From Bacteroidota bacterium (lineage in GTDB: Bacteria; Bacteroidota; Rhodothermia; Rhodothermales; UBA10348): a stretch of DNA of 64,000 nucleotides. Shown here in pieces: positions 25,397 through 29,635 of the stretch. The notes beneath the pieces were generated by a model. The model was given only the letters and a program-made list of their open reading frames with translations, was not told the DNA's origin and did no database searches. Position 1 is the first letter of the stretch. Each line of letters opens with the position of its first letter. The translations under genes were made by a program, and so were the position numbers. The DNA lies in the NCBI GenBank assembly GCA_029262835.1, contig JAJCYQ010000015.1, positions 1-64,000 of the forward strand, in the 5' to 3' direction.

Positions 25397-27514
25397 ATGA
25401 AAGTATACGATGCAGATCACATCAGAAATGTAGCCCTTGTGGGCCACCAGGGCAGTGGTAAGACCATGCTCGCCGAATCCATGCTGTATGCCGCTGGTGC
25501 CCTGAAACGCATGGGCAGCATTGAGGAGGGGACGACCATCAGTGACTATCATGCCAGTGAGAAGGAACGCGGCATGTCTGTTTTCGCCTCGCTCCTGCAT
25601 GTCGAATATCTCGGAAAGAAGATCAATGTAATGGATACGCCGGGTTATCCGGATTTTGTAAGCGAGGTTGCCGCCTCCCTGCACGTGACGGACTCGGCGC
25701 TTTTCGTGATCAATGCCGGGGAAGGGGTCCAGGTGGGAACGGAGCTGGCCTGGCGTTCGGCAGTCCGGCAGAACACGCCGTCCATGTTCGTGATCAACCA
25801 CATGGACAAGCCGGATGTCACTTTTCGGGACGTTGTCGCGCAGCTCAAAGATCGCTTCGGACGGGGCGCGACGGTTGTACAGATTCCGGGCGGCACAGGT
25901 AGCCGGTCCATCATCGATGTGCTGATCATGAAGCAGATCACATTCGACGATCACGGAAAAATGACCGTTTCTGCTATTGAAGAGGCATTTGTCAGCGAAG
26001 CGGAGCAGTTGCACAATGAACTGGTCGAGAACATTGCGGAGAACGACGAGAGCCTGATGGATCTCTATTTCGATAAAGGGACGCTGACTGAAGATGAGAT
26101 GAGATCCGGACTGCGCGAGGCCATGATCCGCCACCAGTTGTTTCCGATCTTCCTGACCAGTGCCACCAGTAATATTGGAGTATCGCGTCTCATGGAGTTC
26201 GTGGGTAATGTCTGCCCTACACCCAGCCAGATGCCGCCGGCACCGCTTGCCAGCGGCGGAACGATCGAGCCCGATTCTGCAGGAGAACCGGTGGCGCTTA
26301 TTTACCATACAATGTCCGAAGCCCATGTAGGTGACTATTCCTTCTTTCGAATCTACTCGGGAGCGCTCGAGACGGGCATGGACCTTGTGAATGCGGAAAC
26401 GGGTGTGACCGAGCGCCTCGGACAGATTTTTACCATCAACGGGCATGATCGCGATCCCGTCGAGCGTATGTACGCTGGGGACCTGGGGGCGCTCGTAAAG
26501 CTCAAGAACACGCACACGAACAACACGCTGCACAGGAAAGGCAGTCAGGTAGTCGTGGAGCCCTTCCTCGTCCCGTCCCCGCGCTACGCGGTGGCGGTGG
26601 TGACGGTCAAAGACGGAGAAGAAGACAAGCTTGCGGCCGGTCTGCACCAGCTTCACGAGGAGGACCCGTCGTTGCAGATTACGCACGACCAACTTCTGAG
26701 CCAGCTCGTTCTGAGCGGACAGGGCGAAATGCACCTGGAAATTGCCAGGTACCGCTTGAAGAACCGGTTCGGTGTGGAAGTGGAATTCGTTCGTCCGAAG
26801 GTGGCCTACCGGGAAACTATCCAACAGCAGGCCCGGGCCAAATATCGCCATAAGAAACAGACGGGCGGTGCCGGGCAGTTCGCGGACATTTCCATGCTTG
26901 TTGAGCCGTTGAACGGGGAGTTCGTGCCACCCGATGATATCAAGGTCCGCGGTGAGCATACCGAAACGACGGCCTGGGGCTCTACCGTTCATTTTGTGGA
27001 TGCGATCGTCGGTGGCGTGATCGATATGCGGCGATTTTTCGGAGCCATACAGAAAGGAGTCATGGAGGCGTGTCAACGGGGCCCGGTGGCAGGGTATCCG
27101 GTCGGGAATGTCCGGGTAGTCATCCATGACGGCGGTATGCATCCGGTCGATTCGAATGAAGCGGCGTTCAAGTCGGCAGCGCGCGCCTGTTTTCGCGATG
27201 CGTTCCGACAGGCGCGTTCCGTGATGATGGAGCCGATCCATCATCTTGAAGTTCTGATTCCGGATGGGTATACAGGCGATGTGATGGGAGATCTCAACAC
27301 GCGTCGCGCACGCATCCAGGGTATAGAAACGGAAGGCCCCTTTCAGAAGGTAATCGCCGATGCGCCGGAGGCCGAACTTCACAGATACTCGACGTCCCTG
27401 CGGTCCATGACCCAGGGTCGAGGCCTGCATCGATCCGAATTTTCCGGGTACGAACCCATGCCGCGGCATGTCCAGGACGAAATTGCGTCAGAAGCGATTG
27501 AGGATGAAGACTAG
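25397..27514 (+). CDS. Elongation factor G-like translational GTPase
   Basis: 705-residue EF-G paralogue with the complete five-domain layout: G domain with G1 GHQGSGKT (16-23), switch region EKERGMSV, G3 DTPGYPDF and a non-canonical G4 NHMD instead of NKMD; domain IV and V with RPKVAYRET, GGAGQFAD, and PIHHLEVLIPDGYTGDVMGDLNTRRARIQG (visible as LEVLIPDGYTGDVMGDLN). These deviations place it with the secondary 'EF-G-like' proteins rather than the main translocase, which usually sits beside rpsG/tuf. Start at 25397 is preceded by AGGTGG. It is 8 nt from the amidase gene, which suggests co-transcription. Confidence 0.85.
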   Translation: MKVYDADHIRNVALVGHQGSGKTMLAESMLYAAGALKRMGSIEEGTTISDYHASEKERGMSVFASLLHVEYLGKKINVMDTPGYPDFVSEVAASLHVTDSALFVINAGEGVQVGTELAWRSAVRQNTPSMFVINHMDKPDVTFRDVVAQLKDRFGRGATVVQIPGGTGSRSIIDVLIMKQITFDDHGKMTVSAIEEAFVSEAEQLHNELVENIAENDESLMDLYFDKGTLTEDEMRSGLREAMIRHQLFPIFLTSATSNIGVSRLMEFVGNVCPTPSQMPPAPLASGGTIEPDSAGEPVALIYHTMSEAHVGDYSFFRIYSGALETGMDLVNAETGVTERLGQIFTINGHDRDPVERMYAGDLGALVKLKNTHTNNTLHRKGSQVVVEPFLVPSPRYAVAVVTVKDGEEDKLAAGLHQLHEEDPSLQITHDQLLSQLVLSGQGEMHLEIARYRLKNRFGVEVEFVRPKVAYRETIQQQARAKYRHKKQTGGAGQFADISMLVEPLNGEFVPPDDIKVRGEHTETTAWGSTVHFVDAIVGGVIDMRRFFGAIQKGVMEACQRGPVAGYPVGNVRVVIHDGGMHPVDSNEAAFKSAARACFRDAFRQARSVMMEPIHHLEVLIPDGYTGDVMGDLNTRRARIQGIETEGPFQKVIADAPEAELHRYSTSLRSMTQGRGLHRSEFSGYEPMPRHVQDEIASEAIEDED

Positions 27515-27522
27515 GTCTGCGT

Positions 27523-28542
27523 GTGTCACGTAAGGAAATACTTCGGGGCGTTTACGAAGAGAACAGACGCATAAAGGAGAAGGGTACGACCGGGGCACGG
27601 CGTGGGGGATACCCACGCCGCCTGGGTGCAGGCGGCGTCGCCATCGTGGTGGTGCTCGTTGTGGTGGCTGGTCTGGTTTTCTGGCACGATGCATCGCGTC
27701 GTATGGATGCCGATTCTACTGTCGCACCCACCTCTCCGGATGCCCGGTTCGAAATGGCCATTCCAGATGATCCCATGCTTAGGGAACTGGAATTGCCAGC
27801 CGGGACCTCACTCGAGGAATTGACCAGTTCCGCCGTGCCTATGGCTGACCTGTTTGATCTTGGCGTGCGTACGATTGTGATCGATGCTGGGCATGGAGGT
27901 GTGGATGGTGGAGCCGAGTCGGTGGCAGGACTCAAAGAGAAAGAGATCACCCTTGACGTCGCCAGCCGTCTTGCTCGTCGCCTGCAGCGATACGGCGTCT
28001 ACGATGTGCTCATGACGCGAGAGGCCGATTCAACGCTTTCACTTCGGGAGCGTGTCGAATATGCCAATTCGAAAGAGGCGGACATTTTCGTATCCATCCA
28101 TGTGAACTGGTTTCCATCCGATTCCGTCTACGCACTCGAAACCTACTATTTCGGGGGGCAGGCGGACACCCTGACGCTGCAACTCGCCGAGCGGGAAAAC
28201 CGCAATTCAGATTACACGGTGGCCGAGTTCAATCGTCTCATGAGTGGGATGTCCGATCGCATAAAAGGAGAGGAGTCTCGTCGACTCGCACTCGCCGTTC
28301 AACGGAGTATGATCCGGAATACCAGGCGGGAAACGGGTCCGGTCCAGAATTGGGGAATCAAATCAGGTCCTTTCGTAGTGCTCGTTGGAACGGATGCCCC
28401 TGGCATCCTAGCTGAAATTGGTGTAATTAGTAATGGCCCGGAAGCGGCGCGTCTTGCGACGGTTGAATACCGGGAACGGTTGGCCCTGTACCTGGAAGAG
28501 GGAATCATTAACTATCTGAACCAAATGGCATCCAGTGAGTGA
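27523..28542 (+). CDS. Membrane-anchored N-acetylmuramoyl-L-alanine amidase (Amidase_3)
   Basis: 339 residues. A basic cytoplasmic N-terminus (1-34) precedes one transmembrane helix (about 36-55), then a periplasmic linker and the zinc amidase domain. Zinc/catalytic positions are intact: VIDAGHGGVDGG (about 116-127), LKEKEITLDVA (Glu), SIHVNWFPS (about 192), and LAEIGVISNGPEA (catalytic Glu, about 297). It cleaves the stem peptide from MurNAc. GTG start at 27523, 8 nt after the EF-G-like stop. The MamK-like gene begins 2 nt after its TGA, so amidase and filament protein are tightly co-expressed. Confidence 0.9.
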   Translation: MSRKEILRGVYEENRRIKEKGTTGARRGGYPRRLGAGGVAIVVVLVVVAGLVFWHDASRRMDADSTVAPTSPDARFEMAIPDDPMLRELELPAGTSLEELTSSAVPMADLFDLGVRTIVIDAGHGGVDGGAESVAGLKEKEITLDVASRLARRLQRYGVYDVLMTREADSTLSLRERVEYANSKEADIFVSIHVNWFPSDSVYALETYYFGGQADTLTLQLAERENRNSDYTVAEFNRLMSGMSDRIKGEESRRLALAVQRSMIRNTRRETGPVQNWGIKSGPFVVLVGTDAPGILAEIGVISNGPEAARLATVEYRERLALYLEEGIINYLNQMASSE

Positions 28543-28544
28543 TT

Positions 28545-29585
28545 ATGGCTGCAAAATCAAAGAATACTAAAAAAAAGGCATCGTCCAACGTTCTGTACAT
28601 TGGCATGGATCTCGGCACCTCTCGAAGTGCGGTTGTTGCCAGCAGTGGGAAACGTGATTGGGTGCACAGTTACGTAGGATGGCCGCGGGATTTCGTGGCG
28701 CGGAAGCATCTTGGAAAGGATGTATTGTTCGGGGAAGAGGCGCTCGCCAATCGGTTATCCGTACATCTGTCACGACCCCTGGAGCAGGGAGTCATACGCG
28801 ACGGTACCGTGCGGGACGAGGACGCTGTTCGGGAACTCGTACACTACCTGATCGAGGCGGCGGCGCCTGGTGACTCCACGGAAGTGTACGCCGCTGTGGG
28901 TGTACCAGCCGAGGCGCTGCGCGTAAACAAGATGGCGATACGGGATGCGGTCAAGGAGTATGCGGACCGGCTTATGGTCGTGTCAGAACCGTTCGCGATC
29001 GCCTATGGCATTGGTGTCCTGAACAATGCGCTGGTGATTGATATCGGTGCCGGGACCATGGACTTCTGCATCATGCACGGTACCATGCCGACCGAGGATG
29101 ACCAGCGCACACTGACGGTTGCAGGTGACTATATAGACCGGCACCTTCTCGACGTATTGTCCGAGAAATATCCGAATGCCCGTTTTTCGGAACCATTGAT
29201 TCGTCAGGCCAAGGAGCAGGGCGCATTCGTGGGTAGTGGGAAGAACCGGGTGAAGGTAAAGGTCCCGGTCGATGGCGTGACCACAGAACTTGACATCGCA
29301 CCCGAAATGCAGCGCGTATGTGCCAGCATTGTCCCAGTCATGACCGAGGCCATGATGGACCTGATTTCTGAATATGAGCCGGACTTCCAGGATGAGGTCA
29401 AACAGAACATTTACCTGGCGGGGGGTGGCAGCCAGATCCACGGACTGGACAAGGCCCTGGTCGATGCACTCAAGGACTATGGAACGTTGAATGTGAACGT
29501 GATTGACGACCCGCTCTATGCTGGTGCAGAGGGAGCGCTGGCGCTCGCCCAGGACATGCCAGATGAGTACTGGGAGGACATGTGA
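28545..29585 (+). CDS. MamK-like bacterial actin
   Basis: 346-residue actin-fold ATPase. Phosphate-1 motif GMDLGTS (20-26), VSEPFAIAYGIGVLNN (from 146), phosphate-2 motif VIDIGAGTMDF (164-174), and adenosine motif LAGGGSQIHG (291-300). From memory, the segment VSEPF-AYGxGxLNN-xxVDIGAGTxD, the following P-x-E-D-Q-x-T-L-T-x-A-G-x-Y-x-D pattern, and the C-terminal PxxYW closely track MamK of magnetospirilla rather than MreB, ParM or FtsA. MamK filaments align magnetosomes; no magnetosome genes occur here. The N-terminus is lysine-rich. ATG at 28545 preferred; a GTG at 28539 overlaps the amidase stop. A bidirectional terminator follows. Confidence 0.88.
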   Translation: MAAKSKNTKKKASSNVLYIGMDLGTSRSAVVASSGKRDWVHSYVGWPRDFVARKHLGKDVLFGEEALANRLSVHLSRPLEQGVIRDGTVRDEDAVRELVHYLIEAAAPGDSTEVYAAVGVPAEALRVNKMAIRDAVKEYADRLMVVSEPFAIAYGIGVLNNALVIDIGAGTMDFCIMHGTMPTEDDQRTLTVAGDYIDRHLLDVLSEKYPNARFSEPLIRQAKEQGAFVGSGKNRVKVKVPVDGVTTELDIAPEMQRVCASIVPVMTEAMMDLISEYEPDFQDEVKQNIYLAGGGSQIHGLDKALVDALKDYGTLNVNVIDDPLYAGAEGALALAQDMPDEYWEDM

Positions 29586-29603: not shown

Positions 29604-29635
29604 AAAGCCCCGTCGGGTATTCCCAACGGGGCTTT
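29604..29635. terminator. Bidirectional Rho-independent terminator
   Basis: Stem AAAGCCCCGT (29604-29613) with ACGGGGCTTT (29626-29635), extended by GGG/CCC around a TATT loop. A-rich on the left and T-rich on the right, so it can end the MamK-like operon (plus) and tRNA-Met (minus). Confidence 0.85.

Follow-up and report, generated by a model that had tools for sequence, protein, structure and literature searches.

An actin of the MamK/BeeR superfamily paired with a membrane-anchored peptidoglycan amidase: evidence for a candidate filament-hydrolase module

Results

Organization of the locus

The window, a 64,000-nucleotide stretch of a Rhodothermales contig (JAJCYQ010000015.1), carries three consecutive forward-strand genes. 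These encode an EF-G-like translational GTPase (25397–27514; NF009381, 835 bits), a membrane-anchored Amidase_3 N-acetylmuramoyl-L-alanine amidase of 339 residues with a GTG start (27523–28542; PF01520, 149 bits), and an actin-like protein of 346 residues (28545–29585; NF040964). Gaps of 8 nt (EF-G-like gene to amidase) and 2 nt (amidase to actin) separate them, and all three open reading frames, with their coordinates and spacing, agree with the preliminary description of this DNA. A 14-pair stem-loop (29604–29635, no strand assigned) lies between the actin gene and an opposite-strand tRNA-Met and possibly marks the end of the unit; its stem is GC-rich and could stop transcription coming from either side. 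The genome also encodes an ordinary MreB and two other Amidase_3 genes, so the amidase-actin pair is an addition to these systems, not a replacement.

The actin belongs to the MamK/BeeR superfamily

The actin scored 395.5 bits against the NCBIfam MamK model, narrowly missing the family cut-off of 400 bits, which its close relatives exceed (402–441 bits). Scores against MreB (83 bits) and MreB_Mbl (85.9 bits) were far lower. The protein also falls outside BeeR, scoring 215 bits against a cut-off of 530 and having about 13 disordered N-terminal residues in place of the disordered extension of 30–50 residues found in BeeR. Its best solved relatives were MamK of Magnetospirillum AMB-1 (257 bits) and BeeR (151 bits). 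The AF2 model (pLDDT 90) best matched the MamK filament structure 5ljv, with a TM-score of 0.89, and the top five Foldseek hits were all MamK or BeeR. The MamK motifs listed in the preliminary description are present in slightly different wording, namely VSEPF, AYGIGVLNN, VIDIGAGTMD, PTEDDQRTLT and a C-terminal EYW. Across 50 relatives, the nucleotide-site residues D22–S26, E148 and D166–T171 are invariant or nearly so, a pattern that fits ATP-dependent polymerization.

In the phylogenetic tree, all amidase-linked actins form a single clade (UFBoot 94 / SH-aLRT 100) that excludes every sampled magnetosome MamK, so that a placement inside the magnetosome MamKs was not recovered. The MamK types and the amidase-linked clade together split from BeeR (93/97) and from MreB (100/100), and the branches joining the amidase-linked clade to the individual magnetosome MamK groups received 39–46% bootstrap. 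Nine residues (W39, W46, F50, G87, V95, A135, V136, L143 and F174) distinguish the amidase-linked from the magnetosome type. Fold and tree therefore uphold the earlier assignment to the MamK kind at the level of the superfamily. The idea of a repurposed MamK ortholog has to be given up, since the protein sits in a separate clade beside the magnetosome MamKs and its nearest relatives from other phyla are all amidase-paired. The window actin is a member of the MamK/BeeR superfamily rather than a MamK ortholog that has taken on a new role.

Compared with AMB-1 MamK (PDB 5ljv, 5ljw, 5jyg), it shares about 36–37% identity over the aligned fold, the ATP-site motifs and the C-terminal YW, but differs in clade, in diagnostic residues and in its partner, which is a peptidoglycan amidase in place of magnetosome proteins. 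BeeR of Verrucomicrobiota (PDB 8r2n; PMC11929497) is likewise a MamK-related actin in non-magnetotactic bacteria, but it is far more distant and lies outside the group that joins MamK and the amidase-linked family.

The amidase and the actin form a constant pair

We sampled 296 genomes of the window's phylum and found an actin of this type in 12 of them (371–423 bits), all within the window's order; the next matches scored below 96 bits and look like MreB. In every one of the 12, the gene just upstream of the actin is the amidase. A contig scan seeded with the actin alignment then yielded 250 relatives, of which the best 80 (the nearest, at 52–97% identity) were kept. Their records belong to six phyla (Rhodothermota, Thermodesulfobacteriota, Nitrospirota, Pseudomonadota, Rokuibacteriota and Aminicenantes). 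An Amidase_3 gene stands immediately upstream on the same strand in 80/80 of these best-scoring loci, and the adjacency is therefore far beyond chance. This agrees with the earlier suggestion of a filament tied to cell-wall cutting. No magnetosome gene was seen among the neighbouring open reading frames read, as had been stated, and the partner is the amidase in all relatives examined.

Across 47 spread neighbourhoods, the amidase and the actin were the sole universal genes. No third conserved gene emerged from this set, in which the other large clusters resembled antisense shadow ORFs. EF-G, TsaB, AccD and HolB neighbours are common only within the window's family. Of the three-gene unit proposed earlier, the amidase-actin order thus held throughout the 12 genomes, and the EF-G link did not: among the loci examined, the EF-G-like gene stands directly before the pair in the window's close relatives alone, and near two further pairs (L081 and L114) it occurs in arrangements that differ from the window's. 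We dropped it as a system component. The amidase-actin pair is the real finding, and the EF-G-like gene is a lineage-specific neighbour outside the conserved module.

Pairwise distances of actin and amidase correlated strongly (r 0.875; 0/2000 permutations as high), although joint inheritance or transfer would produce a high correlation between any two genes as well. As regards a mobile-element origin, the searches gave no plasmid matches and just two phage matches, both distant and from the gut. These unannotated records (MT837389.1 and MT835698.1) encode an actin-like protein that is 26–27% identical to that of the window. At eight loci of the neighbourhood set, mostly from Nitrospirota, a response-regulator-like gene is found close to the pair, and at L101 (7052–8302) it lies directly downstream of the actin.

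Boundary against magnetosome MamK

Among Nitrospirota matches to the MamK model, an amidase accompanies 14/14 actins scoring 402–441 bits and 0/11 scoring 447–473 bits. At two of the amidase-free loci that we examined, a gene passing the MamM cut-off occurs together with MamB-like genes and, in one of them, a MamP-like gene. Thermodesulfobacteriota and Pseudomonadota matches divide likewise at the loci examined, the magnetosome type standing without an amidase. The counts should not be read as unbiased frequencies, since amidase-linked loci were the way into some of the genomes in the scans of these three phyla. At non-magnetosome loci (L140–L153 and others), actins of the amidase-linked type score above the NF040964 cut-off, and MamK database labels in such genomes are therefore likely misleading.

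Several further actins lie near this boundary. The 6.0-Mb Nitrospirota genome G458 encodes two MamK-family actins without an amidase (L138/L163 and L154/L164), one beside a CheW-like gene and the other near a histidine kinase; the scan took in a few neighbours and showed no magnetosome gene. Thermodesulfobacteriota actins of about 334 residues, also without an amidase (L176 and L181, also L177 and L178), branch apart from the amidase-linked clade as well as from the main magnetosome MamK groups, and are possibly a further MamK-like type. Three Pseudomonadota genomes carry extra actins (L219, 12304–13314; L221, 6139–7131; L222, 565–1551) on a long branch of their own near the proteobacterial MamKs.

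The amidase has an AmiA-type catalytic domain and a conserved cytoplasmic tail

In the AF2 model, the amidase comprises a helix (residues 3–20), a flexible stretch, a transmembrane helix (residues 36–62), a disordered linker and the catalytic domain. The last of these is closest to E. coli AmiA (8c2o; E = 1.4e-18). The domain score and the H, E, H, E residues place the protein in Amidase_3: the Zn ligands H124, E139 and H193 and the catalytic E298 are invariant in 50 paired amidases. An AmiA-type regulatory insert (helices 216–225 and 233–244; 28168–28254, forward strand) aligns E225 with E167 of AmiA, which assigns the enzyme to the AmiA/B/C type. E225 and N226 are invariant in the same 50 proteins, within a segment aligned to LSERENR of AmiA. 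In AmiA, the insert holds blocking and interaction helices, and E167 is the latch of autoinhibition (PMC10268282). Given this alignment, the enzyme of the pair is probably inactive when synthesized. Like the septal amidases AmiA, AmiB and AmiC of E. coli, it has the catalytic fold, the Zn ligands and the blocking-helix latch glutamate; unlike them, it is membrane-anchored, has a conserved cytoplasmic tail and is extra to the other Amidase_3 genes of its genome.

The predicted transmembrane helix (27628–27708, forward strand) coincides with a hydrophobic stretch from residue 34 onward that is preceded by a net charge of +7, giving an N-in orientation by the positive-inside rule. The layout is the same in 50 relatives, with a net charge ahead of the membrane helix that is positive in 49/50 and zero in 1/50. 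This positive charge places the tail in the cytoplasm, on the actin's side. Its N-terminal part (residues 3–20, RKEILRGVYEENRRIKEK; 27529–27582, forward strand) is a candidate actin-docking helix, with the consensus [RK]xxILRGVYE[ED]NL[RK]I ahead of the transmembrane helix in the paired-amidase alignment. The motif occurs in 76/76 amidases with an intact 5′ end among the best 80 of the 250 loci, a contig end cutting the 5′ part of the remaining four; start codons were picked so as to include it, and its presence in the open frame is independent of that choice. In Roseithermus (L055 and L037) it is doubled.

Column entropy was lowest in the catalytic domain (1.55 bits) and in the motif (1.65 bits), and reached 2.9 bits for the transmembrane helix, 3.1 for the linker and 3.2 for the remainder of the tail. 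N14 of the tail is invariant in 50 sequences, as are the catalytic residues, and L7 is conserved in over 90%. An overlapping gene cannot explain this conservation, because the window motif lies past the end of the EF-G gene.

Within the window's order, the tail profile was found in 12/12 genomes with the actin (the window's genome and 11 others) and in 0/18 without it. A separate set of genomes, with other MamK-family actins only, gave 0/15. A tail-profile search of the window genome returned one clear protein (E = 3e-8), the next match having an E-value of about 1, and so gave no second tail-bearing protein as further cargo. The conserved tail looks like a handle by which the filament might hold and place the cutter. 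Alternatively, its target could be some other cytoplasmic component that is always present along with the actin.

A genome that lacks the actin

The paired amidase was looked for in nine of the order's genomes that lack the actin. Eight contain at most an ordinary amidase, and those included in the tree form a separate clade (96/94). The ninth, G215, encodes an amidase nested inside the paired clade (94/85) on a long branch (length 1.33). This gene is followed directly by DHFR, glycosyltransferase, Era-like and PdxJ-like genes in the same order as at L060 and L065, with the actin missing. The G215 amidase keeps the membrane helix and the catalytic residues, the segment with latch E225 is deleted, and the tail motif is absent from all three upstream frames that we checked. 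Such a loss pattern, here in a single draft genome of 190 contigs and on a long branch, is what docking and actin-linked control predict.

Discussion

Bacterial actins place wall synthesis (MreB), division (FtsA), plasmids (ParM) and magnetosomes (MamK). From the observed gene identities, the pairing at the loci examined, the co-occurrence of tail and actin, the conserved catalytic and latch residues and the separate clade, we consider it likely that the pair is a dedicated filament-hydrolase module, in which the actin would dock an autoinhibited periplasmic amidase by its cytoplasmic tail and thereby determine where the wall is cut, and perhaps also when. As its fold and nucleotide-site residues suggest, the actin would polymerize at the inner face of the membrane. 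Tail conservation and co-occurrence further suggest that the filament binds the tail helices of many amidase molecules. The amidase would thereby be collected and positioned along the inner membrane as a bitopic protein, in which a transmembrane segment and a flexible periplasmic linker connect the short cytoplasmic helix with the AmiA-type catalytic domain and its autoinhibitory insert. Peptidoglycan would then be cut only at filament-marked sites, for example the septum, a control of cutting and of its site that we infer. What would release the autoinhibition is more speculative, and clustering or crowding of the enzyme, a periplasmic activator or tension may be involved. An extended form of this proposal, in which the filament also gates the autoinhibited amidase as a transmembrane switch separate from FtsEX-EnvC/NlpD, and in which MamK shares this ancestry and swapped the amidase for the magnetosome, seems doubtful to us.

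Other readings account for part of these observations. The two genes might merely be co-expressed envelope genes, the tail serving to insert the protein into the membrane or to bind some cytoplasmic factor, from the divisome or elsewhere, while the actin works independently; other amidases of the window's order do exist without any actin. We think this improbable, since the pair is kept across phyla while every other neighbour varies, and the tail motif is missing from all 18 actin-free genomes of the order and has been lost in the actin-less G215 amidase. Somewhat less probable still is that the amidase mainly anchors the filament to membrane and wall through peptidoglycan, leaving the filament to position other cargo as MamK does with magnetosomes. 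The actin fold is indeed nearest to MamK, a cargo-positioning filament, and bacterial actins are known to have bitopic proteins as partners (PMC7613929). However, neither a third conserved gene in the 47 neighbourhoods nor a second tail-motif protein in the genome offers itself as cargo, and a mere anchor would not need the invariant catalytic residues.

That the protein is a genuine MamK, left over from a magnetosome system or serving one, would accord with its score against the MamK model and with the sister genes that pass the cut-off. This is very hard to reconcile with a clade separate from all sampled magnetosome MamKs, with the nine class-specific residues, and with magnetosome-type loci that, where checked, have no amidase, two of those in Nitrospirota adjoining MamM, MamB or MamP genes; we regard it as highly improbable.

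The closest functional precedents for the dedicated module are MreBH-LytE and the tail of FtsN with FtsA. To our knowledge, MreBH and LytE do not make up a two-gene unit of their own in which one partner has a transmembrane tail. In Bacillus subtilis, the actin homologue MreBH distributes the wall hydrolase LytE (PMC3817527), a likeness in the kinds of partner, although that actin is of the MreB family and LytE is an autolysin. The cytoplasmic tail of FtsN binds FtsA; this pair and PilM-PilN have in common that a bitopic protein binds an actin-like one through a short tail in the cytoplasm (PMC7613929). FtsN, however, is no hydrolase, and its actin is FtsA with an IC domain. The open-access literature that we searched contained no report joining MamK with an N-acetylmuramoyl-L-alanine amidase, and amidases go unmentioned in the papers on Mad28 and on FcmB, a new cyanobacterial actin. 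The parts are of familiar kinds; in that open-access literature we found no description of the constant pair, of the candidate docking motif or of the clade.

At least one named strain with a complete genome, Roseithermus sacchariphilus MEBiC09517 (locus L055), carries the pair, which is therefore bench-testable. If the proposed module is real, it would give a widespread actin a wall hydrolase as its constant partner, together with a candidate docking peptide that can be tested. Proteins that score above the MamK cut-off in non-magnetotactic bacteria would then often not be magnetosome proteins, and the amidase-linked actin would be a close relative with which to ask about the origin of MamK.
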